Below, in pieces: positions 6,203 to 43,885 of a stretch of DNA of 64,000 nucleotides (positions are counted from its first letter, which is position 1; each line of letters starts with the position of its first letter). The notes under the pieces were generated by a model, which worked only from the letters and a program-made list of their open reading frames with translations, did no database searches and had not been told where the DNA came from. The position numbers were made by a program, and so were the translations under genes. Origin of the DNA: Candidatus Terasakiella magnetica (GTDB lineage: Bacteria > Pseudomonadota > Alphaproteobacteria > Rhodospirillales > Terasakiellaceae); assembly GCF_900093605.1 (NCBI RefSeq), contig NZ_FLYE01000001.1, forward strand, positions 620,001-684,000, read 5' to 3'.

Positions 6203-7033
6203 CTATTTCTTATGACGGCTGCGCATAATCAGCGCGTCCGTCTTCTTGTTGCTACGAGTGCGCTTACCCTTAGTAGGCTTACCCCAAGGAGTCACCGGAT
6301 GACGACCACCTGAAGTACGACCCTCACCACCACCATGTGGGTGATCGACAGGGTTCATTGCTACACCACGGACAGATGGACGCTTGCCAAGCCAGCGGTT
6401 ACGACCGGCCTTACCAAGTTTCACGTTCTGATGATCCGAGTTGGATACAGCGCCGATAGTTGCCATGCACTCACCGCGGATCAGGCGAACTTCACCAGAA
6501 CCGAGACGAAGCTGAGCGTACCCTTGGTCTTTACCAACGAGCTGAACGTATGTACCAGCAGAACGTGCGATCTGACCACCTTTACCAGGCTTCATCTCAA
6601 CGTTGTGAATGATGGTACCAACCGGAATGTTCGCGATAGGCATCGCGTTACCCGGTTTTACGTCAACGCGCTGACCAGACACAACAGTGTCGCCAACTTG
6701 CAGGCGTTGCGGAGCGAGAATGTAAGACAGTTCCCCGTCTTCGTAGCGGATAAGAGCAATAAAGGCCGTACGGTTTGGATCGTACTCAAGACGCTCTACT
6801 GTTGCCGGAACATCAAATTTCGCATTACGTTTAAAGTCGATGAAGCGATAACGACGCTTATGACCACCACCAATACGGCGGGATGTAATACGACCTGTGT
6901 TGTTACGGCCACCGCTCTTACGCAAGCCTTCAGTCAAAGCTTTGACTGGTTTGCCTTTGTAAAGATCGGAACGATCAACCAGAACCAAGCTACGCTGGCC
7001 CGGAGTCGTTGGTTTGAAGTTTTTCAAAGCCAT
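6203..7033 (-). CDS. rplB: 50S ribosomal protein L2
   Basis: L2 is a primary 23S rRNA-binding protein needed for subunit association and peptidyl-transferase activity. The 276-residue protein has the SH3-like and OB-like core and the strongly conserved C-terminal block [18 protein letters not shown] containing the functionally critical histidine. It lies 3 bp after rplW, in normal order. Confidence 0.98.
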
Positions 7034-7036
7034 GGT

Positions 7037-7360
7037 TTAGACCCCCGTCGTCACATCAATAGACTCACCTTCGGCGAGTGTAATGATTGCTTTTTTGACA
7101 TCGGAACGACGTCCCATGCGGCCACGGAAACGTTTGGCTTTACCCTTAGTGATAAGAGTATTAACCGCAGTTACCTTCACACCAAATACACTTTCAACCG
7201 CTTTACGAACTTCAATTTTGTTCGCATCCATAGGAACGCGGAAAGTTACTTGGTTGTGCTCTGACAGCAAAGTCGCTTTCTCGGTGATAACCGGCGAACG
7301 CAGTAATTCAAACTCACGTTCTTTAGAAACGGTTACTTTGCTTGCTAGATATTTTGTCAT
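7037..7360 (-). CDS. rplW: 50S ribosomal protein L23
   Basis: L23 sits at the exit tunnel and is the docking point for trigger factor and SRP. The 107-residue protein has [20 protein letters not shown] near residue 20 and [19 protein letters not shown] towards the end. Its start overlaps the rplD stop by 4 bases (ATGA), implying coupled translation. Confidence 0.96.
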
Positions 7361-31737: not shown

Positions 31738-32028
31738 GGGACACGCCTAGGGCACAACATGCCATTAATCAACAACTCGCTGCTTTGAAATAGCTTAGTA
31801 CTTAGGCTCACAATTTGACATCTAACATCCCCAGTTACCTTTCATTCGGGCTCCAAATACCATTGACATAGATTGCTTCCAATAAAACCAAGTGGACAAA
31901 GTCGTTCACTCATCCAATTTAGAAGAAATGTTACTTTTATTGTATTGCCTATTAAACCTTGAATAACTTATCGGTTGTGATAGCGTCCAATAGAAATGCT
32001 TCTTGTACAAATGAGTAAGGAGAAAGTA
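31738..32028. other. AT-rich gap downstream of tRNA-Thr
   Basis: No gene was found in about 290 bases. A short direct repeat of the form GGGACAC / GGGCAC occurs at 31738-31754. TTGACA occurs at 31863-31868 but lacks a well-spaced -10. There is no integrase gene and no second copy of the tRNA 3' end, so an attachment site is not supported. The promoter of the following operon should lie here. Confidence 0.5.
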
Positions 32029-33033
32029 GTGATAACTCGCAAGTTCAATTTAATGATTGTTGCTTTCTTAGTCTGTTGGAGCATGGTCGGGAAACTATAT
32101 GCCGAGGATATGGTTAAAACGATCTATCTGGTGACGTGGCGTGGCTTTGAAGAGGGGTGTGAAGGTTTCAAGGAATACCTTGATACCCGTGGCATCAAAT
32201 ATAGGCTGGTGCATAAAGACATTGCACGAGACAAAAGCAAACTGCCGGGCATTGTTCAGGATATTAAATCCACAAAACCCGATCTGGTTGTGACTTGGGG
32301 CACCTCTGTCAGTGTTGGTGTCTTGGGAACTTACGACAATGCGGATAGTTCTAATCATATTACGGAAATTGCGTCTGTATTTATGTTTCCAACCAACCCA
32401 CAGCGCAGCAAACTGGTTAAAGATTACAGCACCCCCAGACGCAATGTTACAGGCGTTCGATATGTCTTGACCGAACAACAGCAACTTACAGCCGCGCTTG
32501 CAAGTTTGTCTTTTAAGAAGATGGGCATTATTGAGAACCGCGATGAAATCAATGTCGTAAACTCTATCAATTCCATGAGGCAGGCCGGCAAAGCGTCAGG
32601 AGTTGATATTTTAGTTGAGGCTATTGCAAAAACGACTGAGAAGGATGAAACCCTTAGCACGCTGAAAATAGCATTGAAGAAATTGAAGGCTTCTGGTGCG
32701 GAGTTGATTTATTTCCCGCCAAGCTCTTTATTGAACAGCTATTCTCAGGAATTTACCTCTATGGCGGTTGAGTTGGGCTTGCCGATTTTCTCTTCCGGTC
32801 AAAACCCGGTGCGTGAAGGAAAGGCGGCAATCGGTGTTGGGGTGCCTTATCGACAAACAGGGAAAAGGGCCGCCGTTCTGGCTGAAAAAATTCTGGCAGG
32901 TTCAAAACCCGAAGACTTATCAATTGATGCACCGGAGGAATTCGGGGTCGTGGTCAATATGTCAGTGGTGAATGAGTTGGGGCTAAAAGTATCCCCAGAC
33001 ATTCTATCTGTTGCTGAAATTGTACAGAATTAA
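32029..33033 (+). CDS. Periplasmic ABC-type substrate-binding protein (ABC_sub_bind family), orphan
   Basis: This is a 334-residue exported binding protein of the tryptophan/purine-type ABC_sub_bind family. A GTG at 32029 with AAGGAG 6 bases upstream is the best start; an in-frame ATG at 31996 lacks a ribosome site. The signal peptide spans about residues 1-25 (LMIVAFLVCWSMVGKLYA, then ED). The mature part has two lobes with KPDLVVTWGTSVSVGVLG, RRNVTGVRYVL and the late AAIGVGVPYRQTGKRAAVLA, the family hallmark. No permease or ATPase is nearby; the next gene, 6 bp on, is a membrane sensor phosphatase. A role in ligand sensing is therefore inferred. Confidence 0.82.
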   Translation: MITRKFNLMIVAFLVCWSMVGKLYAEDMVKTIYLVTWRGFEEGCEGFKEYLDTRGIKYRLVHKDIARDKSKLPGIVQDIKSTKPDLVVTWGTSVSVGVLGTYDNADSSNHITEIASVFMFPTNPQRSKLVKDYSTPRRNVTGVRYVLTEQQQLTAALASLSFKKMGIIENRDEINVVNSINSMRQAGKASGVDILVEAIAKTTEKDETLSTLKIALKKLKASGAELIYFPPSSLLNSYSQEFTSMAVELGLPIFSSGQNPVREGKAAIGVGVPYRQTGKRAAVLAEKILAGSKPEDLSIDAPEEFGVVVNMSVVNELGLKVSPDILSVAEIVQN

Positions 33034-33039
33034 TAGCTA

Positions 33040-35220
33040 ATGCAAGTAATCAATAGAGAGCACAATATCAGCACCAACAGCAATCGTCGCACATTTTATG
33101 TGGTGACCCTCGTGGTTGGTTTTGTTCTGATTGGATTGATTTATCTTTATGCACAATCACTGAAAAATGATGTTGAAGCCGTAAATGCTCGCAATAATCA
33201 GCAAGTTTCGTCAAACATTCTGGTGCTCAAAAACCATATAAAGAATCTTATCCTATATACTGAGGTTCTTGGCCGCCTTGAAGCAAAAGCAAGCATTGAG
33301 AATGCAGAGAAAGCAAATGATTGGGCACAAAAAAACTTTGAGTCCTTTTTGATCAATGTTCCTGAACTCTTTGGTTTTGCTTTAGTGGAAAAGGGGCAAA
33401 TCTTGTTAAAGGCGGGATTTCAGGAAAATGATATTCCTGATGAGCTGATTATTTCACTGGGGAAACCTAAAAGCATCTTTCCTGCTCGCCTAGAGGTCAG
33501 AAAAGAAATTTCGACAAAACAAAGTAAGTTAAGACTCTTGCCTCTGACGCAACGCATTGTGCAGGACAAGAGAAAAATTTTTGGTGTTGTCTTATTAAGT
33601 GCACCAAAAATAGAAGAACTTATTAAAAATGCCAATGAAGAAAATATTATTCATTCCTCTCTTGTTGATAATGCCGGACGGGTTCTTGTATCAGGCCACA
33701 AGGGTCAGACTATAACAAAAGCGCAGGATGAGCTTAGCAGCCTTTTAAATAAATCAGTGCTGGGTTTTTCTGATGTGATTGCTTCTGAAAAAGGTCTGGC
33801 AGGCAAGGAGATAAATTACCTAGCAGTGCCCGTATCACCATTTCCGATCAACCTGATCGCGATCTATAGACCCGTCATGCTTTTTGCAGAACAGATTAAT
33901 AAGATTGTTATTTTCTCTGTCATTGTCATTTCAGCCTTTTCTATTTTTGTATTCTTTTTCTATCGCACCAGTACAAAACTTGATGCGCACCAAGGACACC
34001 TTGAAAGCCTTGTTGAGGAAAGAACCCAGGAACTGGAAGAAAGAACGGGGCTTTTGCAAACCGTTTTAGCCTCCATGACAGTCGGGATTGTTGCCTTTAA
34101 TAAAGATTTGAAGTTGATTGCTTGGAATAAGCAATTTTTAAAAATTAGGGACTACCCTGAAGAGCTCGTTAAGATTGGGACTGAGTTCTCAGTATTGATG
34201 GATTTTGACAGTCAACGCCACGAATTTGGTGATGAATTACCTGAGCTTTCAACCCTCGATCTGATTGAACGTTCAAAACGATTTGAGTATCACGAGTTTG
34301 AAAGAAAACGCCCTGATGGCAGATATATTGAAGTCAGAGGGGGGCCAATTCCCGGCGGTGGGTTTGTAAGCACCTACACGGATATTTCAGAACGTAAAGA
34401 AAATGAAAAAATGTTGCGTGAAGCCTATTCGATCATTTCAGATAGCATTGATTATGCCGCAAACATTCAGCGTTCTATCTTGCCCAACATCCATAAGTTT
34501 GCAGACATATTTGAAGATTACTGCGTCTTTTGGGAGCCTCGTGACCGTGTGGGGGGAGACATGTATTGGGTCCGAAAATGGGGTGATGGTGATCTTATTT
34601 TATTGGGTGACTGTACAGGGCATGGCGTCCCCGGTGCCTTTATGACCCTTATCGTTACAGGTGCGCTTGATGGAGCTTTAGATCAAGTCGAGCCCGGAAA
34701 TGTAAGTGCACTTCTTCAATACATACATCAAAATGTTCAAAACTCATTATCTCAAGATCAAGAACATGGCACCTCTGATGATGGGCTTGAAGTCGGCGCC
34801 TGTTTTTTATCGAAGAACCATAAAGAACTAACTTATTCAGGGGCTCGTTTCTCATTATTTAAAATTGAAAATGATGAAGTGGTGGAGATTAAGGGGACCA
34901 AAAAAGGGATTGGATATAGGATGATACCTTATGATCAAAACTATCCCAGTCATTGCATTGAGTTAAATGACACTCAATCATTCTTTTTAACAACAGATGG
35001 GTTAATTGATCAAATTGGCGGAGAGAGGAAAAGAATGTTTGGCAAAAAACGCTTTAAAAACCTCTTGTTATCTCTGCGGGGAGTTCCTTTATTTGAACAA
35101 AAATTTAGAATTTTAGAAGCTGTTGCAGACTATCAAGGATATGAAATCCGTCGTGATGATATGGCCTTAATCAGTTTTAAGGTCAAGCAAGATCAGGATA
35201 ACCATGACTACATCATATAA
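33040..35220 (+). CDS. Membrane sensor with PAS and SpoIIE/PP2C phosphatase output
   Basis: The 726-residue protein has TM1 at about 19-38, a periplasmic domain to about 285, TM2 at about 287-308, a coiled coil (LESLVEERTQELEERTG), a PAS domain (about 337-450) and a C-terminal PP2C domain of the RsbU/SpoIIE/SiaA type (about 470-720). Metal-binding residues are intact: GGDMYW, LGDCTGHGVPGAFMT, TTDGLIDQ and RRDDMALI. Such enzymes dephosphorylate serine or threonine on partner-switch regulators. It follows a binding protein by 6 bp and overlaps the receiver gene by 17 bp. The periplasmic domain may dock that binding protein (inferred). Its best local substrate candidate is the SiaC-like protein at 35685-36062. 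Confidence 0.85.
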   Translation: MQVINREHNISTNSNRRTFYVVTLVVGFVLIGLIYLYAQSLKNDVEAVNARNNQQVSSNILVLKNHIKNLILYTEVLGRLEAKASIENAEKANDWAQKNFESFLINVPELFGFALVEKGQILLKAGFQENDIPDELIISLGKPKSIFPARLEVRKEISTKQSKLRLLPLTQRIVQDKRKIFGVVLLSAPKIEELIKNANEENIIHSSLVDNAGRVLVSGHKGQTITKAQDELSSLLNKSVLGFSDVIASEKGLAGKEINYLAVPVSPFPINLIAIYRPVMLFAEQINKIVIFSVIVISAFSIFVFFFYRTSTKLDAHQGHLESLVEERTQELEERTGLLQTVLASMTVGIVAFNKDLKLIAWNKQFLKIRDYPEELVKIGTEFSVLMDFDSQRHEFGDELPELSTLDLIERSKRFEYHEFERKRPDGRYIEVRGGPIPGGGFVSTYTDISERKENEKMLREAYSIISDSIDYAANIQRSILPNIHKFADIFEDYCVFWEPRDRVGGDMYWVRKWGDGDLILLGDCTGHGVPGAFMTLIVTGALDGALDQVEPGNVSALLQYIHQNVQNSLSQDQEHGTSDDGLEVGACFLSKNHKELTYSGARFSLFKIENDEVVEIKGTKKGIGYRMIPYDQNYPSHCIELNDTQSFFLTTDGLIDQIGGERKRMFGKKRFKNLLLSLRGVPLFEQKFRILEAVADYQGYEIRRDDMALISFKVKQDQDNHDYII

Positions 35221-35584
35221 GTTTTATGTTGTTGATGATGACCCACTGGTTCTCGAGTTTATCTCCAAACTCCTAACAAAGGCCGGCCATGAGGTACGGT
35301 TGAATGTATCCAGCCTTGAAGCACTGAATGAACTATACGATTATACACCTGATTGTGTCATCTCTGATCTAATGATGGCGGGGGTAGACGGCCTTGAACT
35401 CACGCGTGAATTACGTTCCCGCCTATCTTCTCAGCAAACAAAAATCGTTCTGATAAGCGCGAACAAAAACGAAATCTGGCGCATAAAGGCCGCATCCCTT
35501 GGCGCAAATGGTTATATCTTGAAGCCGATAAATTCAAACCAATTTGTTCATCAGGTTACCACGATTATTGAAAACATTGATTAG
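35204..35584 (+). CDS. CheY-like single-domain response regulator
   Basis: The 126-residue stand-alone receiver domain has acidic pocket VVDDDP, phosphoacceptor Asp in CVISDLMMAGVDG (about residue 53), the switch Ser in VLISAN and Lys in LKPIN, all intact. It has no output domain. Its start overlaps the phosphatase gene by 17 bp, so expression is coupled. There is no cognate kinase in this three-gene unit; it may bring phosphorelay input to the Sia-type cluster or regulate the phosphatase directly (inferred). Confidence 0.85.
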   Translation: MTTSYKFYVVDDDPLVLEFISKLLTKAGHEVRLNVSSLEALNELYDYTPDCVISDLMMAGVDGLELTRELRSRLSSQQTKIVLISANKNEIWRIKAASLGANGYILKPINSNQFVHQVTTIIENID

Positions 35585-35591
35585 CTGCTGT

Positions 35592-35619
35592 GCTTCTGTT
35601 GTGGGTCATGAACAGAAGC
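35592..35619 (+). terminator. Hairpin between convergent receiver and siaC-like genes, possible terminator
   Basis: A perfect 9-bp stem GCTTCTGTT/AACAGAAGC with a 10-base loop starts 7 bases after the receiver-gene stop. The following TTAAAATCT is a weak T-tract, so termination is likely but not certain. Confidence 0.45.
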
Positions 35620-35684
35620 TTAAAATCTAATAAGATACATTCGCGTCACCCCAAAAAAAGTTATTCTTTTTCTTGGAGAAAAAA

Positions 35685-36062
35685 CTATTCCTTCTCGATA
35701 AGCTTGAACTCAGCATGTTTGATATCTTCGGCTAACATTTCGCCTTCTTCACCAAGGTCTTCATCGTCAAAATGCCATTCAATAATGACTTTATTGTCGT
35801 TTGTTGTCGTTTGGTCCAGGAGTTCAAACAAATTGAAGATCACACGAGATGAACTGCTATTGAAATATTCAAGATCAAAAATGAAGACAATTTCACTGGA
35901 TTTTTGTTCAGCCAAGTGCTCTTCCAGTTTTCCTATGAGTTCACCATAAAAACAGGTGACATCTTCCATAAAGGACTCACCTGAAAGTTTAAAAGTGTTT
36001 TCTGAAAACTTGAAATCGACCGCTGGGTAGTTCTCTGTTCCAGCTAACTTAATATTTTCCAT
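35685..36062 (-). CDS. siaC: SiaC-like regulator (DUF1987), phospho-switch protein
   Basis: The 125-residue protein begins MENIKLAGTENYPAVDFKFS and has SGESFMEDVTCFYGEL and FDLEYFNSSSSRVIFNLFEL, the arrangement of DUF1987/SiaC. In Pseudomonas aeruginosa, SiaC is phosphorylated by SiaB on a threonine in the matching loop, dephosphorylated by SiaA, and binds the diguanylate cyclase SiaD. Here that loop carries four serines (residues 69-72) in place of threonine. The ATG at 36062 is preferred to a TTG at 36077. It is 18 bp after the siaB-like gene. No siaD neighbour is present. Confidence 0.8.
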   Translation of the reverse strand: MENIKLAGTENYPAVDFKFSENTFKLSGESFMEDVTCFYGELIGKLEEHLAEQKSSEIVFIFDLEYFNSSSSRVIFNLFELLDQTTTNDNKVIIEWHFDDEDLGEEGEMLAEDIKHAEFKLIEKE

Positions 36063-36080
36063 TGTTTTTATTCCCAAAGC

Positions 36081-36656
36081 TCACGCGTATGCTTTCAAAT
36101 AGAAATACTTATGTAAATCATCATGAGGTTTAAACTCGAAACTAAAACCACCAGAAGCCCTTCTGGCGATATCTATTAACCCAAGACCAGCCCCCTTACT
36201 CCCTTGCGGTGCAGGTTTCTTAATAGCCTCTTTATACTTTAATTTCAAACCTGCAGAGTCCAAGTTCTGAATTTCTTTTAGTGAACGTTCAATTCGAACG
36301 GCATCTTCATTGTAAACAATATTGCCACAACAAACATAGTACCTGTCATTCGTCTTACCAATTAACACAAAGCCATGGCGCAATTCATCTGCTTCTTGTT
36401 GGGTTTCAAGATCATTCTCAACTGCCGAAAGAACACCTTTTGAATAGCGGATAATATTTTGAACTTCTTCAACAAATATAGCAAAAATTGCTCTTGATAT
36501 TTTTTTATCAACTTTGACTAAATCGAGCTTTTTCTTGACCATTTTTCCGGCGCTGAGCAGCAAGTCCTCAGTCACATAGCCCGAATAGTAAAAGAAGATT
36601 TCCTGTTCGTTCAAGTCAGATTGAATGCCATGTATTTTATCGAAATCTTCCATCAT
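36081..36656 (-). CDS. siaB: SiaB-like protein kinase
   Basis: The 191-residue soluble protein resembles the SiaB family of kinases with a GHKL-like fold. Visible blocks are YYSGYVTEDLLLSAGKMVKK, FAIFVEEVQNIIRYSKG (helix with the Glu-Asn N-box-like pair) and a glycine-rich GSKGAGLGLIDIARRASG (about 153-170) for the nucleotide lid. In P. aeruginosa it phosphorylates SiaC. The ATG overlaps the siaA-like stop in ATGA, with AGGA upstream. Kinase activity is inferred from family and neighbours. Confidence 0.8.
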   Translation of the reverse strand: MMEDFDKIHGIQSDLNEQEIFFYYSGYVTEDLLLSAGKMVKKKLDLVKVDKKISRAIFAIFVEEVQNIIRYSKGVLSAVENDLETQQEADELRHGFVLIGKTNDRYYVCCGNIVYNEDAVRIERSLKEIQNLDSAGLKLKYKEAIKKPAPQGSKGAGLGLIDIARRASGGFSFEFKPHDDLHKYFYLKAYA

Positions 36657-38551
36657 GCTCTTCCTATCTTAAAGCCAATGATAGCAACATCGTCACGACG
36701 TAGCGCATCGCCTTGATGCTCCATAAGTGCCTCTTGAATTTCTTTCACCTGATCTTTCATAGGTAAAGCATGCACTTTTAATAGGAGCTCCTGAAAACCT
36801 TTTTTACCGAGGCGTCTTTTTGTTTTTGAGCTTTTTTGATCCAATGCCCCGTCTGTCGTCAGATAATACTGTGCCGTTGGTGACGCGCTTATTTCTATAT
36901 TTTCATAAACGTAATCAGCAGGTATTTCACGATAGCCAAGACCTCGTCGTCCGCCTTTAATGGTTTTGACTTCCCCATTCTCAACAATAAGCAGATCAAA
37001 TTTAGCCCCAACAAAGCTAAGCTTATTTTTCTTTGGTTCTATATAGCAAACACCTAATTCTAACCCATCATCGGCAAGACCTTCACCATTATCTTGCCCA
37101 AGTGATTGCTGTAAGAGTTGGTTCATTTTACCTATTAGGGAAGAGATATCTCCAATTTCAACCTCAGAAATAGCGCGTTCAAGCGCGCCTGTTGAAATTA
37201 AAGTCATGAAGGCACCAGGTACGCCATGGCCTGTGCAATCGCCAAGAGACATTAAGACACCATCTCCCCACTCGTAGAACCAATAGACGTCCCCACCAAC
37301 CACATCTCTTGGCTCCCAAAATATGAAGTGATCTTCAAATGCTTCAATAAGGAATTCTCTATTTGGCAAAATGGATTGTTGGATCTTACTGGCATACAGG
37401 ATGCTGTTGGAAATATTAAGAAAGGCTTCTTTCAATTTTGTTTCAGCATTTCTTCGTTCTGTGACATCACTCACAACAATAATTGCCCCGCCATCTGGCA
37501 TATCGTTTTTACGTGAGGATAAAACCCGTCCCTGATGTGTTGTAGATTCCCATTCTTTAAAGCCATTTTCTTTAATTCGTTGAATACGAGTTTCGACAAG
37601 GTCCTGAATTTCACCTTCGCCCAAGCTTCCAATATTTGCTGCAACCATCAGGGTTTCTTCAAGAGGCTTGCCAAGCTCAAAATTACTTTTATCTATACCC
37701 GTCATTGAGGTGAAGCGATCATTGAAAAGTGTAAAATGGAGGTCCTTATCCACCGTATACAAACCATCTGACATACCTGTGAGCGCCGCACTAAGCTGAG
37801 CTTCTTTTGCCTCGATCTTCTTCTCATATGCTTGCGAGGCACGCATATAGTTTTTAAACATTCGAAATACAAAGAAGAGAGTTACCGTCAAAATAAGAAC
37901 TTGGATTACGGAAGTAATAATCAAAGAATAAAAGGCAAAATTTGATTGTTCATCAGCCTCAACAAAGACATCACGACTTCGCTGCAGGAGCATTTGACCA
38001 AAGATGTCTAATGCTTTTTGTAACTGGGCATAGTTTTCTTTTTCCTGACCCGTCACACTGATGAATGCAGCTATTCTCACACCTGTATTGATATAATAGA
38101 AGGTTCTAGAAACAGCCTCTTTGTAAGTGGCCCAAGAATTGAGAATATTGAGATATGCATCTCGCAGCTCAGTTTCTTCAGCACTCGCACTTTCAACAAT
38201 GGCTTTCCATTTTATGAGTTTCTGGTCCAGCTCATTCACCAACAGGTCATAGCGCTCTTTTATTTCGTTGACGCTTTTACGGTTAGGCGCAGAAACCATC
38301 TCCATGGATAAAATGCGCACATCCGCAATTGGTGTTTTTATTTTTCTTGAAAGGTTATCGAGATTAAACGCGGCTTTGTTGACAACCTCAATTGATTCAT
38401 CAACATCCTGAATACTGGAAAGGTTGTACAGGCTTTGGCCAATCAGAAGAAGTGTCGCGATTACCAACAGAAAGGTAATTCTAAGTGACAGAGAGCGTTC
38501 CCATTTTTTCGCTGATTTCACTTCCCCGTTTTCTGGGGTTTCAGTACTCAT
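36653..38551 (-). CDS. siaA: SiaA-like membrane sensor phosphatase (PAS plus SpoIIE/PP2C)
   Basis: The 632-residue protein has TM1 at about 24-42, a helical periplasmic domain with KTPIADVRILSMEMVSAPNR, TM2 at about 205-228, PAS at about 250-370 and a PP2C/SpoIIE domain from about 385 to the end, with GGDVYW, LGDCTGHGVPGAFMT, TTDGALDQ and RRDDVAII intact. It is closely similar in the output domain to the protein at 33040-35220. It is joined to a peptide-type binding-protein gene upstream by an ATGA overlap and to the siaB-like gene by another, so all four genes form one operon. Confidence 0.85.
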   Translation of the reverse strand: MSTETPENGEVKSAKKWERSLSLRITFLLVIATLLLIGQSLYNLSSIQDVDESIEVVNKAAFNLDNLSRKIKTPIADVRILSMEMVSAPNRKSVNEIKERYDLLVNELDQKLIKWKAIVESASAEETELRDAYLNILNSWATYKEAVSRTFYYINTGVRIAAFISVTGQEKENYAQLQKALDIFGQMLLQRSRDVFVEADEQSNFAFYSLIITSVIQVLILTVTLFFVFRMFKNYMRASQAYEKKIEAKEAQLSAALTGMSDGLYTVDKDLHFTLFNDRFTSMTGIDKSNFELGKPLEETLMVAANIGSLGEGEIQDLVETRIQRIKENGFKEWESTTHQGRVLSSRKNDMPDGGAIIVVSDVTERRNAETKLKEAFLNISNSILYASKIQQSILPNREFLIEAFEDHFIFWEPRDVVGGDVYWFYEWGDGVLMSLGDCTGHGVPGAFMTLISTGALERAISEVEIGDISSLIGKMNQLLQQSLGQDNGEGLADDGLELGVCYIEPKKNKLSFVGAKFDLLIVENGEVKTIKGGRRGLGYREIPADYVYENIEISASPTAQYYLTTDGALDQKSSKTKRRLGKKGFQELLLKVHALPMKDQVKEIQEALMEHQGDALRRDDVAIIGFKIGRA

Positions 38552-40278
38552 TTATCGGCACCTTTCATGTTCACGCGTTGAATTTTTAAGGGCTTCTGTC
38601 TTATTGAAGGCAGTGGTTTATCCCCACGTACCGACCAGTGATGATCCGTTACCTCAACATCTCGCAAATAGACAAAGGCTGACTGTCCGGGGGTATAAAC
38701 AACTTCTTTGTTCACAGCATAGACGCTGTTCGGTGTTGGCAAGAACACCATTAAATTTCGTTCATATATATATTTGATAAACTTTGACAGGAAGGGCTGA
38801 TAGTCCTGAGATGTCACATTCAATCTAAGAAGTTCATCAGTTAAATTTGTCAATTCAGTATTCTTGGGAATGGTGGACCAAGCGTAAAAGGGGCGATAGA
38901 CAAAGAAGGCTGCCCACGGGTGAGTAAACCAATCATAATTCCCCCACAGAAGCAGGTCCCAAGTGACATTATTTTCATTTTTGTAGGTATGGAGAAGTTG
39001 ATAGAAAACGTCCTTTTCACTGCTCACGACTTTGAGCTCTAATTCGATATGAACTTGGGCGAGAAGGTACTGAATATCTTTTACAAGAAAGAGAAAACTC
39101 TCTTGGGTCAATAAACTGATTTTGAGAGGTTTACTCTCGTCATAACCCTTTTCGCGTTGATATGATTTGACGATCTCAGTGAGTGCTTTTTGGGATTTAT
39201 CATGTGTCCTGTCATATTCCTGAAAATAATCTGACAAGTCGTCAATTGCTTCTGACACTTTATAAAAATTAGGAGAAACCATTGTTGGAGAAAGCTCTCC
39301 CTCACCCAACATGGATAAGTTCAATAGATCTTCTTGATTGATCGCATTGTTGATCACAAAACGTATCTCAGGGTCCTGCATCGCCAAATTGCCATTTAAC
39401 ATATTGAAATGCATAGCATAATTGTTCAATGATGGTGTAATAGACAATTTCGCAAAGGGGGATAAAACTGTGTCGACCTGATCAGCAAAGGGAACAGGCG
39501 TTATATCAATTTCTCCCTCACTAAAGAGGGCCTTCTCCTTTGCCGATTGAATTGCGAGATCATTGTAAATTGTGATTGTTTCAACTTTAGCAGATTGTTC
39601 CCCCCAATAATTGGGGTTGGCTTTTAGAACAACTTTTGGAGATCGCCGATCTCCTTCGACATATCCTTCAGTTAGAATATAGGGCCCAAGACCATATAGT
39701 CCCGGTTCTGCGAGATTTGGACAAGTTGGCTTCCCATTCCAGCCGAATTTTTCTAAATAGGGAACCGTGTAAAACTGGAGCCAGTTTGCATCATGTAAGA
39801 AAACACCGTAAGGCTCACTTAAATGAAAACGCACCGTAAAATCATCAACTTTCTCGACTTTGTTCAACAGTTCGGAAAGTCTGGAAAATGAAAATGGAGC
39901 TTTTTGGAAGTACTCCATATTTATCAGGACTGCATCTGCGTTGAAGGGCGTACCATCTTGAAAAGTCACATCTGTTCGTAATGAAAATTCCCATACCTTG
40001 TCATCAAAGCTCTTGTGAGAGGTCGCCAAATCATATTGCCAACCTTTATCATTATCAGCAGGCCTGACGAGAGAAGAATTTACGGCATGGGAAACGGCCA
40101 GATAAGGCAAGTTTGGAATGAAAAGCTTAACATGAGAACCGGGTTTAAATTTACCGGATACTTCTGCTGGTGCCGGATCGTTGGAAAGCCCAATATCCGG
40201 TGCATTATTTGCATTAGAAATAGATGTGAGAAGTGAAAAGCTTAAGGCTAAAACACTTAGTGCTTTTAATAACTTCAT
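38548..40278 (-). CDS. Periplasmic binding protein, SBP_bac_5 (oligopeptide/DppA type), orphan
   Basis: The 576-residue exported protein has start ATG at 40278 with GGGAG upstream; the open frame reaches 40362. A signal peptide covers residues 1-23 (LSVLALSFSLLTSISNA). Family-5 features are WEFSLRTDVTFQDGTPFNAD at about 95-115, AEPGLYGLGPYIL, and VVLKANPNYWG. There are no permease or ATPase genes. Its stop codon overlaps the start of the siaA-like sensor by 4 bases, a very tight link that argues for a sensory partner of SiaA. Ligand unknown; peptides, nickel or haem are possible for this fold. Confidence 0.85.
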   Translation of the reverse strand: MKLLKALSVLALSFSLLTSISNANNAPDIGLSNDPAPAEVSGKFKPGSHVKLFIPNLPYLAVSHAVNSSLVRPADNDKGWQYDLATSHKSFDDKVWEFSLRTDVTFQDGTPFNADAVLINMEYFQKAPFSFSRLSELLNKVEKVDDFTVRFHLSEPYGVFLHDANWLQFYTVPYLEKFGWNGKPTCPNLAEPGLYGLGPYILTEGYVEGDRRSPKVVLKANPNYWGEQSAKVETITIYNDLAIQSAKEKALFSEGEIDITPVPFADQVDTVLSPFAKLSITPSLNNYAMHFNMLNGNLAMQDPEIRFVINNAINQEDLLNLSMLGEGELSPTMVSPNFYKVSEAIDDLSDYFQEYDRTHDKSQKALTEIVKSYQREKGYDESKPLKISLLTQESFLFLVKDIQYLLAQVHIELELKVVSSEKDVFYQLLHTYKNENNVTWDLLLWGNYDWFTHPWAAFFVYRPFYAWSTIPKNTELTNLTDELLRLNVTSQDYQPFLSKFIKYIYERNLMVFLPTPNSVYAVNKEVVYTPGQSAFVYLRDVEVTDHHWSVRGDKPLPSIRQKPLKIQRVNMKGADK

Positions 40279-40438: not shown

Positions 40439-43400
40439 CTAGTCTTTTAGAATATGGACCTCTTCTTTCAAGACTTCATTAATGGTCTTGATCAAATCCA
40501 CCCAGTTAAGAGGTTTGGAGACATAGGCATTTACGCCCGCTTCAAAATAACTTTCAATATGTTCTAATACGGCATCTGCGGTGACGGCAATAATTGGGAT
40601 ATTGCCTTTATCGCTTTGCATTTTGCGAATTTGACGCGTCGTTTCTGGCCCATCCATTTCTGGCATACGCACATCCATCAAGATGAGATCGAATGTATTT
40701 TTCTCATCCGTATAAATCTCTAAGGCTTCAATCCCATTGCTCGCGACCTGAACGTCATGACCATAGGCCCCAAGGAATTTTTGAATGATGAGCTGGTTGA
40801 CACGATTGTCTTCTGCCAGCAGCAAATTAAGAGGGCGCTGCGCTTTATAACAATTGGCTTGAGCGTTTTGTGGTTCCGGCGCCACTTCGCTTTGCGCCAC
40901 CTTATAAGGGACCTCAAACCAGAAGGTACTGCCTTTACCCAACTCACTTTGCACACCAATGCGCCCGCCTAACAACTCGCTTAAACGCTTACTGATAGCA
41001 AGCCCAAGGCCCGTGCCTTCATATTTTCTGGAGATGGAAGCATCAGCTTGGGTAAACTCAGAAAACAGCATATTCAATGTGTCTTCGCTCATGCCAATGC
41101 CTGTATCGGCCACTGTAAATTTAAGGAATTCATCGCCCTGATCTCTTTGCACAATTTCAGCACTGATCCGCACTTCACCTTCATGGGTGAATTTATGGGC
41201 ATTGCCGATCAGGTTGAGTAAAATCTGTCGAATACGTGTTGGGTCAGAACAAACCGTTTCAGGGAAACCTTCAGAAAACGCGAGTTTCTTTTCAATATGC
41301 TGATCTGTTTTGCGACGGTGATTAAAGACAGAGACCACTTCTTCCACAAGGTCTTTCAGACGAAAATCGATATGCTCAATTTCCATCTTACCGGCTTCTA
41401 GCTTTGACATGTCCAAAATGTCATTCACCACACGCAATAAGGCATGTGTGGAGTTTTTAATGCGATAAACTTTATCGCGGCTGTCTTCTTCCAGTTCATC
41501 TTCAAGCAGCAAATCAGCAAAACCCAGCACGCCTGTCATTGGGGTGCGCAACTCATGGCTCATAGACGCCAAAAACTCTGATTTCACCTTATTGGATGTT
41601 TCGGCCTTATCTTTTGCAATGATATTTTCTTCTTCAATCCTTTTGCGCTGAATTAGACCAGCCAAGGTTGAGGCCACGTTCATAATTAACTGATGTTCAT
41701 GATCTGAAATTTCATGACCTGCAGGTAAATAAAGATTAAGTACCCCTAAAAGCTTATCTTCATATAAAAGTGGAATACAGGCATGGCCATGATTATTTAT
41801 ACCCTCAAAACTAATCTCATGATCCGCATCCAAACAAGTCTTATAAATAACTTCACGTGTTTGAGCCGCACGCCCACATAGGCACGTCCCTAAAGACAGC
41901 TTTTCACATTGTGATTTAATCTGAGGATGGAGCTTATGCTCGGCAACCATGACCAGTTCGTCAGTACTTTCATCATATAAAAAGACAGACCCCATCCCCA
42001 GGAGCTCAAGATTTTCGCGCTGTAAGATCAAATGCAGGGCCTGATCCAAGAGCTCATGTAACCCATGTGATGAAAGAGACAGGGAGAGGATTTGAGAAAT
42101 AAGTTCATGATCAGCAAACAGAGATCGTGCTTCTTGTTCAGCTGCTTTAAGCGCTGTCATGTCAGAAATAATGCCCACGAAATGGAGCTGGTTGTCCACT
42201 TGCATCTGACTAACAGCGAGGCGTGCAGGAAAGAGGGTGCCGTCTTTTTTCTGCGCATGTACTTCACGTGCCTTGCCAATGACTTTTGCCACTCCGGTTT
42301 CAAGGAATTGGTCTATATAGCTGTCATGCTTGTGTTTATCTGGCTCAGGCACAAAGACGGACAGGTTTTGGCCCACCAGCTCCCCTCTGGCATAACCAAA
42401 CAGGGCTTCTGCGGCATCATTGGCAGACAGAATTATCCCATTGCTGTTGGCTGTGATAATCCCATCAAGTGCTGTATCAATAACGGTGCGCGAACGTCTG
42501 GCACTTTCTATCAAGGCCTTACGGGCTTCTACCCTTTCGGTAATATCTTGAATGGTCCCGCTTGAGAAAAGGTTCTCCCCCTTGGGGCCAAAGATATGTT
42601 CACATCTTTCATGGACCCAACGGACCTGCTGATCATCAAGACGAATAATGCGATATTCCACATCATAACTATAGTTACCCGTCAGTGATTTTTTATATTC
42701 ACGGCGGGTAAACTCAAGGTCATCGGGGTGAATGGCTGACTTATATGTGGTATAAGAAGGCTGAGCAGCATCAAGGTCCGCCCCAATTAAATGATAGGTT
42801 TGATCAGACCAAAACACGCTCTGGCCTGTGCGATCATATTTCCAGCTGCCGATTTGGGCAATGGTCTGCGCCTTTTCCAAATCTTCCTCGCGAAGGGAAA
42901 TATCAGAAGACCAACGGCTCACAGCGCCAAGCGTTTTGCGAAAGGAAACAAAGACAATACTGCCAAAAGCCAAGACAATTGCCAAAGCAAAATAAAAGCC
43001 CTGAAGCTGACTTTGGCCCATAATTTCCGTCACATCGCTTGAGACTTCAACAATGCCGCGCACATCATGGAGTTGCCAATCCGTTTTCGGGCTTTCAGGA
43101 TGAGAGTTATGACAACTGACGCAAGCCTCGCTCGCCATCGTATCAGCAATAGCAACACGCACGATAACCCGCCCGCCTTCATCCACACGCTCAACGTATG
43201 GAGCTTGTGCGTCCTTATTTAAAGCCTGCCATGCCTTTTGCCCAAAAGGGTCGCTCTCTCTGCCCGTGCGGTTCTTAAATGGAAATGGACTATAAAAATC
43301 TAGATTAAATTTCTCATCTTTTGAAAGATCACTAAGGTCATTCACCATGCTTGCGGGTAAAGGAATTCTATTTTTCTTCCCCATATGATCCGCACTTACA

Positions 43401-43627
43401 GTGATATCATTCTCACCTTCCATTATTTTACGAACCACATTAACAGTGTAATAACTTCGTAGAGTTTTCACCTGCTTTGCCAACTGGCCTGCTGTATTTA
43501 TAGCATGTTCTTCTGCACTTTTTTGTGTGAAATAAGGAAAGATAAAAAAGGCTGCGCAAGCAAATACAACAACAGCAAGCAACTGAATCGGCATCAATTG
43601 CCAGGCAAGGTTTTTATCTTTTTTCAT
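40439..43627 (-). CDS. Hybrid sensor histidine kinase: haem-c sensor (DUF3365)-PAS-PAS-GAF-HisKA-HATPase-REC
   Basis: About 1062 residues from the ATG at 43627; a GTG 4 codons earlier is possible and neither has a clear ribosome site. TM1 at about 10-32, a periplasmic DUF3365/Tll0287-like domain with CVSCH at 169-173 (c-type haem motif), TM2 at about 208-228. Then two PAS domains (about 260-370, 390-500), a GAF domain (about 510-670), HisKA with MSHELRTPMTG (His about 689), HATPase (GTGLGLAISKRLSELLGG) and a receiver with LILMDVRMPEMDG (Asp about 982). No DNA-binding output. The sensor half is paralogous to that at 45056-47803. Redox, NO or oxygen sensing through haem is inferred. Confidence 0.88.
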   Translation of the reverse strand: MKKDKNLAWQLMPIQLLAVVVFACAAFFIFPYFTQKSAEEHAINTAGQLAKQVKTLRSYYTVNVVRKIMEGENDITVSADHMGKKNRIPLPASMVNDLSDLSKDEKFNLDFYSPFPFKNRTGRESDPFGQKAWQALNKDAQAPYVERVDEGGRVIVRVAIADTMASEACVSCHNSHPESPKTDWQLHDVRGIVEVSSDVTEIMGQSQLQGFYFALAIVLAFGSIVFVSFRKTLGAVSRWSSDISLREEDLEKAQTIAQIGSWKYDRTGQSVFWSDQTYHLIGADLDAAQPSYTTYKSAIHPDDLEFTRREYKKSLTGNYSYDVEYRIIRLDDQQVRWVHERCEHIFGPKGENLFSSGTIQDITERVEARKALIESARRSRTVIDTALDGIITANSNGIILSANDAAEALFGYARGELVGQNLSVFVPEPDKHKHDSYIDQFLETGVAKVIGKAREVHAQKKDGTLFPARLAVSQMQVDNQLHFVGIISDMTALKAAEQEARSLFADHELISQILSLSLSSHGLHELLDQALHLILQRENLELLGMGSVFLYDESTDELVMVAEHKLHPQIKSQCEKLSLGTCLCGRAAQTREVIYKTCLDADHEISFEGINNHGHACIPLLYEDKLLGVLNLYLPAGHEISDHEHQLIMNVASTLAGLIQRKRIEEENIIAKDKAETSNKVKSEFLASMSHELRTPMTGVLGFADLLLEDELEEDSRDKVYRIKNSTHALLRVVNDILDMSKLEAGKMEIEHIDFRLKDLVEEVVSVFNHRRKTDQHIEKKLAFSEGFPETVCSDPTRIRQILLNLIGNAHKFTHEGEVRISAEIVQRDQGDEFLKFTVADTGIGMSEDTLNMLFSEFTQADASISRKYEGTGLGLAISKRLSELLGGRIGVQSELGKGSTFWFEVPYKVAQSEVAPEPQNAQANCYKAQRPLNLLLAEDNRVNQLIIQKFLGAYGHDVQVASNGIEALEIYTDEKNTFDLILMDVRMPEMDGPETTRQIRKMQSDKGNIPIIAVTADAVLEHIESYFEAGVNAYVSKPLNWVDLIKTINEVLKEEVHILKD

Positions 43628-43885
43628 AGGACCAGACACAAAAAAACAAACGAATTATGTAAGACCATACTAAAGTAACGCCTAAACTGCAAATTTCATT
43701 TAATGTAATATATCGTTGTATTTATTACGTTAAAATAAAGCTCATCACGTTTAGGACCAATCTGAGGTTTAATCTTACATCTTCTCTTTAGGAAGCAGTT
43801 GACAAGATTAGTTAAAACTGAAAATCTCAAAATAATTCTAAATGGCAACAGCTAAGAATTTGTGCCTGAGACATAAGGAAACCTG

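Follow-up and report, generated by a model that had tools for sequence, protein, structure and literature searches.

Binding-protein genes beside two SiaA-like phosphatases at a Sia-type locus of Candidatus Terasakiella magnetica

The window, a stretch of 64,000 nucleotides from Candidatus Terasakiella magnetica whose own positions are used below, holds two gene groups that face each other between 32029 and 40278. Gene order, strands and families are those given in an earlier sequence-only reading, and the main family calls each lie above the curated Pfam cut-off. On the plus strand, the first gene (32029..33033) encodes a periplasmic binding protein, SBPX, of PF04392 (ABC_sub_bind; Pfam 4.1e-26). 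Its start is the GTG chosen in that reading, with an ATG at 32011 as the alternative; the N-terminus carries a hydrophobic segment at residues 6-24, and the closest solved structure is 6hni (3.6e-12). The next gene (33040..35220, plus strand) encodes PP2C-a, a membrane phosphatase that the tree places in the SiaA-like clade (Pfam PAS_7 6.9e-31, SpoIIE 1.8e-15). It is laid out as a transmembrane (TM) segment, an extracytoplasmic sensor, a second TM segment, PAS_7 and a PP2C/SpoIIE domain, with hydrophobic segments at 16-42 and 278-312; an AlphaFold model of the sensor (mean pLDDT 43.5) was too poor for a fold search. The unit ends in a lone receiver domain (REC; 35204..35584, plus strand; Pfam Response_reg 2.1e-25) that retains the acidic pocket and the Lys. 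The tight packing described earlier is present, with a 6-bp gap between SBPX and PP2C-a and a 17-bp overlap between PP2C-a and the receiver.

The minus-strand operon begins with SBP5 (38548..40278), a binding protein of the dipeptide/nickel type (SBP_bac_5; Pfam 1.6e-42) that has an N-terminal hydrophobic segment and counts DppA/NikA-type proteins among its PDB matches. On the same strand lies a SiaA-like phosphatase, PP2C-b (36653..38551; Pfam SpoIIE 1.6e-18, PAS_7 5.6e-24), here called SiaA, in which two TM segments (hydrophobic at 19-47 and 203-233) flank a weak four-helix-bundle match (4HB_MCP_1, 6.7e-4, below the cut-off) and are followed by PAS_7 and PP2C domains. An AlphaFold model of its N-terminus (mean pLDDT 56) was likewise too poor for a fold search. 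A SiaB-like kinase (PF19788; 36081..36656, minus strand; Pfam 1.5e-39; PDB 6kko_A, 2e-19) and a SiaC-like switch protein (DUF1987/SiaC; 35685..36062, minus strand; Pfam SiaC 1.6e-32; PDB 6k4f/6kko, 4.6e-9) complete the operon. SiaA, SiaB and SiaC all match solved Pseudomonas aeruginosa proteins (for SiaA, PDB 6k4e at 6.9e-51), which bears out the Sia identity that had been proposed. The operon had been described as joined throughout by ATGA overlaps. These are found at SBP5/SiaA and SiaA/SiaB, but SiaC follows the SiaB stop after a gap of 18 bp: its probable start is the ATG at 36062, where the N-terminus is consistent with the SiaC alignment, so only two of the three junctions are ATGA overlaps. 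The binding-protein gene that had been called fused is operon-linked, not gene-fused.

As had been claimed, PP2C-a and SiaA are paralogous, with 40% identity across their PAS and PP2C domains (query residues 195-630), and the acidic PP2C motifs are intact in both. Among the ORFs at 28-45 kb, no ABC permease or ATPase genes were recognised near SBP5 or SBPX. Both are thus binding proteins without transporter genes of their own, each encoded beside a putative receptor.

On the tree, the catalytic domain of PP2C-a lies nearest to that of a protein at locus L140 into which two SBP domains are fused; a lone receiver comes after it and shares 42% identity with the focal receiver. One scan of genome contigs returned a single relative, L013, where REC is fused to PP2C and is followed by SiaB and SiaC. 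The phosphorelay input proposed earlier for the focal receiver was considered, but no kinase could be assigned to it. The gene immediately upstream of SBP5, also on the minus strand (40439-43639), encodes a hybrid histidine kinase (Tll0287-like, PAS, GAF, REC), a possible partner of the receiver.

Linkage to binding proteins proved to be a recurrent trait of SiaA-like phosphatases in the focal genome and in its order. In the focal genome, SpoIIE/PPM proteins gave 17 matches, and SiaC and SiaB are present in four copies each; a tree of PP2C domains assigns 12 of the 17 to the SiaA-like group. A binding protein is fused or adjacent to 10 of these 12, compared with none of the five other SpoIIE/PPM proteins (Fisher p 0.003). 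Adjacency was scored in loci picked by SiaA or SiaC similarity rather than by the presence of a binding protein, with background genes drawn from these loci only; on this footing an adjacent binding protein occurs at 8/12 SiaA-like phosphatases and at 14/208 other genes of the same loci in the focal genome, and at 11/50 and 14/683, respectively, in relatives. With fusions included, the count in relatives rises to 21 of 50. Since the main family calls exceed their cut-offs and binding proteins are enriched near SiaA-like phosphatases, the pattern at the focal locus exceeds chance. Binding-protein-like genes also adjoin other sensors in this genome (L206).

One SiaA-like phosphatase (L016:12496-15201, G000:C44) has, by eye, a long multi-helix, transporter-like N-terminus, and Pfam named its SpoIIE part only; in another (L019:7813-11115, G000:C45) the sensor is a Reg_prop/Y_Y_Y propeller, and an SBP_bac_3 gene lies upstream. 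SBP-fused SiaA-like phosphatases lie on the small contigs C15, C16 and C6 (L020, L021 and L022), one of which bears a recombinase-like ORF, a hint of mobile elements. At L192, L193 and L200, PF04392 binding proteins are found close to PP2C proteins of another type (at L192, SpoIIE with HATPase_c_2), together with MFS-containing membrane proteins.

The two focal pairs differ in their conservation. A search of 199 genomes of the order gave nothing close to SBP5, the best partial match being 38%, and no binding-protein neighbour was seen for the nearest SiaA kin (L102, L106 and L108; clade support 99/96), the L106 contig ending inside the phosphatase gene. On present evidence, the SBP5-SiaA pairing is therefore private to the focal genome. 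Cross-genome conservation of binding-protein/SiaA adjacency had been suggested earlier as a check: the linkage in general recurs, but this pair was seen in none of the other genomes searched, an outcome that the earlier reading had listed among its grounds for refutation. The nearest relative of SBPX (66% identity, genome G010) overlaps or abuts a hybrid kinase gene (L186) whose first ~330 residues are 47% identical to the PP2C-a sensor region, with strong homology stopping near the PAS domain. Judged from these alignments, the SBPX-sensor unit appears to have been retained while its output was exchanged, phosphatase in one genome and hybrid kinase in the other.

The earlier proposal that two inputs converge on one SiaC finds indirect support in gene counts. 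Among 297 genomes of the order, SiaC exceeds its cut-off in 74 and a SiaA-like PP2C is present in 73, with an overlap of 73, a statistic that ignores phylogeny, presence and absence covarying within families f1, f18, f21 and f22; the lone SiaC genome without a SiaA-like PP2C (G061) is 81% complete. One genome (G007) has five SiaA-like phosphatases for one SiaC, and in four others (G020, G084, G124 and G138) the ratio is 3:1. As at the focal locus, two phosphatases surround a single SiaB/SiaC pair at L016, L092 and L130, with binding proteins, and at L108, where no binding protein was seen. The facing two-phosphatase layout itself repeats at L092, in another family, with fused and adjacent binding proteins. 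The counts are consistent with convergence, and the choice of SiaC as the substrate of both phosphatases is our inference.

The focal SiaC carries the motif YFNSSSSR, which aligns with P. aeruginosa YLNTSS and places a Ser, a phosphorylatable residue, at the T68 position. Across the aligned set of the order, the residue at this position is Thr with GGDEF-type (SiaD-like) loci and Ser with others. In the same alignment the focal protein has changed residues at SiaD-contacting positions, including an acidic stretch, DDEDLGEEGE. It is a divergent protein on a long tree branch whose placement is not firm, and the idea that it groups firmly with other SiaC proteins lacking effectors found no support in the tree.

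Elsewhere in the order, the neighbours of SiaC are class III adenylate cyclases, histidine kinases, hybrid kinases, GAF-HD proteins and GGDEF proteins, and these enzymes have in common an N-terminal stalk of ~70 residues with a near-invariant SDR. The GGDEF protein at L114 aligns with SiaD (7e6g), and its stalk SDR falls on the SiaD 'RISDR' segment, the docking helix for SiaC. SiaD residues S82, D83 and R84 contact SiaC, and SiaC T68 contacts S82 and Q86 (PMC8457831); phosphorylation of T68 and its effect on SiaD binding have been described (PMC7647112, PMC8457831). The adenylate cyclase stalk alone gave no convincing solved relative, its top matches being coiled-coil chance matches, and some GGDEF-effector stalks score weakly (L131). 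Stalk and SiaC nevertheless occur together in 69 of the 297 genomes, the exceptions being five with SiaC only and one with a stalk only. A same-genus genome without SiaC (G003) also has a stalk protein.

Only three stalk proteins are found in the focal genome. Contig C2 encodes two of them, an adenylate cyclase and a histidine kinase, and C43 encodes the third, a GAF-HD protein. On C2, SiaB and SiaC are followed by the class III adenylate cyclase and the histidine kinase, which bear the same N-terminal stalk (L014:7295-8323 and 6294-7295, G000:C2). The GAF-HD protein (L206:7884-9869, G000:C43) has a SiaC-type stalk and no SiaC gene beside it. Neither SiaD nor any other stalk effector is present at the focal locus, so the output of the focal SiaC, if it runs via stalks, must act in trans; given the effectorless locus and the divergent protein, this SiaC may also have another partner.

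We interpret the locus as a Ser/Thr partner switch of the Sia type in which periplasmic binding proteins gate the phosphatases, a reading to which we give as much belief as doubt. Ligand-loaded SBP5 would contact the periplasmic domain of SiaA, as DppA does with Tap, and SBPX would contact the PP2C-a sensor; such contact would activate or shut off the PP2C domains on the cytoplasmic side. SiaB would phosphorylate SiaC at the Ser in the T68 position, and both phosphatases would strip that phosphate. Dephosphorylated SiaC could then dock in trans on the C2 adenylate cyclase, the C2 histidine kinase and the C43 GAF-HD protein. The lone receiver may also have a role in the switch.

Because the focal genome has four SiaB/SiaC pairs, two of them without an adjacent phosphatase, PP2C-a could serve another SiaC. 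The locus would then hold two separate back-to-back pathways, with SBP5, SiaA, SiaB and SiaC forming one switch and SBPX, PP2C-a and the receiver acting on a different SiaC (the copy at C1:48k, on C2 or on C44) or another substrate. We consider this possible though rather doubtful: the units are convergent and transcribed separately, and the tree puts PP2C-a and SiaA into separate small clades, yet PP2C-a lies inside the SiaA-like clade, L092 repeats the facing arrangement, and genomes with one SiaC hold several SiaA-like phosphatases. A different objection concerns the output. That the focal SiaC is a satellite switch, which competes for stalk effectors or no longer binds them and has its partner elsewhere, for example in the neighbouring hybrid kinase, would account for its divergence, its altered SiaD-contact positions (the acidic stretch among them) and the missing stalk gene. 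It retains the YFNSSS docking and phosphorylation motif, however, and several other divergent SiaC proteins that have no effector gene next to them share genomes with stalk proteins; we consider a satellite role unlikely.

It seems more improbable still that the binding proteins serve transporters encoded elsewhere while the phosphatases sense through their own domains. P. aeruginosa SiaA has been reported to sense membrane perturbation by its own sensor region (PMC12834913), and SBP5 lacks conserved linkage. Against this, transporter genes flank neither binding protein, both genes are tightly packed against their phosphatase genes (an overlap or a 6-bp gap), many SiaA-like phosphatases contain a fused SBP domain, and the SBPX-sensor pairing survives a swap of output.

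Taken across the order, the switch gated by binding proteins would be part of a modular many-to-few network, an extension on which we are evenly divided: many SBP-gated phosphatases would act on few SiaC proteins, and these on a transferable N-terminal stalk carried by several enzyme types (adenylate cyclase, histidine kinase, GAF-HD protein and diguanylate cyclase). The Sia systems described so far would be one instance of this network. The repetition of the scheme in relatives suggests that many outside signals are funnelled through few switches into different second-messenger and kinase outputs. If so, a periplasmic nutrient-sensing input is added to a Ser/Thr partner switch that has been studied mainly in the biofilm control of one pathogen, and the SDR stalk becomes a sequence tag that predicts enzymes under SiaC control. 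It would also become testable how several phosphatases work on a common switch protein and how one switch feeds cAMP, c-di-GMP and histidine-kinase outputs. Open-licence PMC papers, searched with limited terms, so that absence is weak evidence, gave no report that links SiaC to adenylate cyclases or describes an SBP-gated SiaA.

Partner switches of the RsbU/SpoIIE type combine a PP2C phosphatase, a GHKL-type kinase and STAS-like switch logic. The focal locus is alike in all three, but its switch is a SiaC (DUF1987) protein and its effectors would be stalk-bearing enzymes rather than sigma-factor control. E. coli DppA touches the Tap receptor, and DppA-Tap and LuxP-LuxQ are both SBP-assisted receptors. 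The focal locus resembles them in having the gene for an orphan binding protein next to that for a two-TM receptor; SBP5 is a member of the DppA family, and the weak match in the focal SiaA is to a four-helix bundle. The principle of receptors assisted by binding proteins is described in PMC9602780; here the output is a PP2C phosphatase, not a chemoreceptor or kinase, and SBP contact is proposed. In GlnH-GlnX-PknG of Corynebacterium glutamicum (PMC9769921), control of Ser/Thr phosphorylation has likewise been proposed for a periplasmic binding protein together with a membrane protein; as described there, a kinase is controlled via a separate membrane protein, whereas the focal membrane protein itself bears the phosphatase. 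Closest in the switch itself is SiaABCD of Pseudomonas aeruginosa (PMC7647112, PMC8457831, PMC12834913), with which the focal locus shares the SiaA PP2C phosphatase, the SiaB kinase, the SiaC switch and the conserved motif around T68. Unlike that system, it has no SiaD and has Ser in place of T68, its binding-protein gene overlaps siaA, and opposite the operon lie another SBP-linked phosphatase and a lone receiver.
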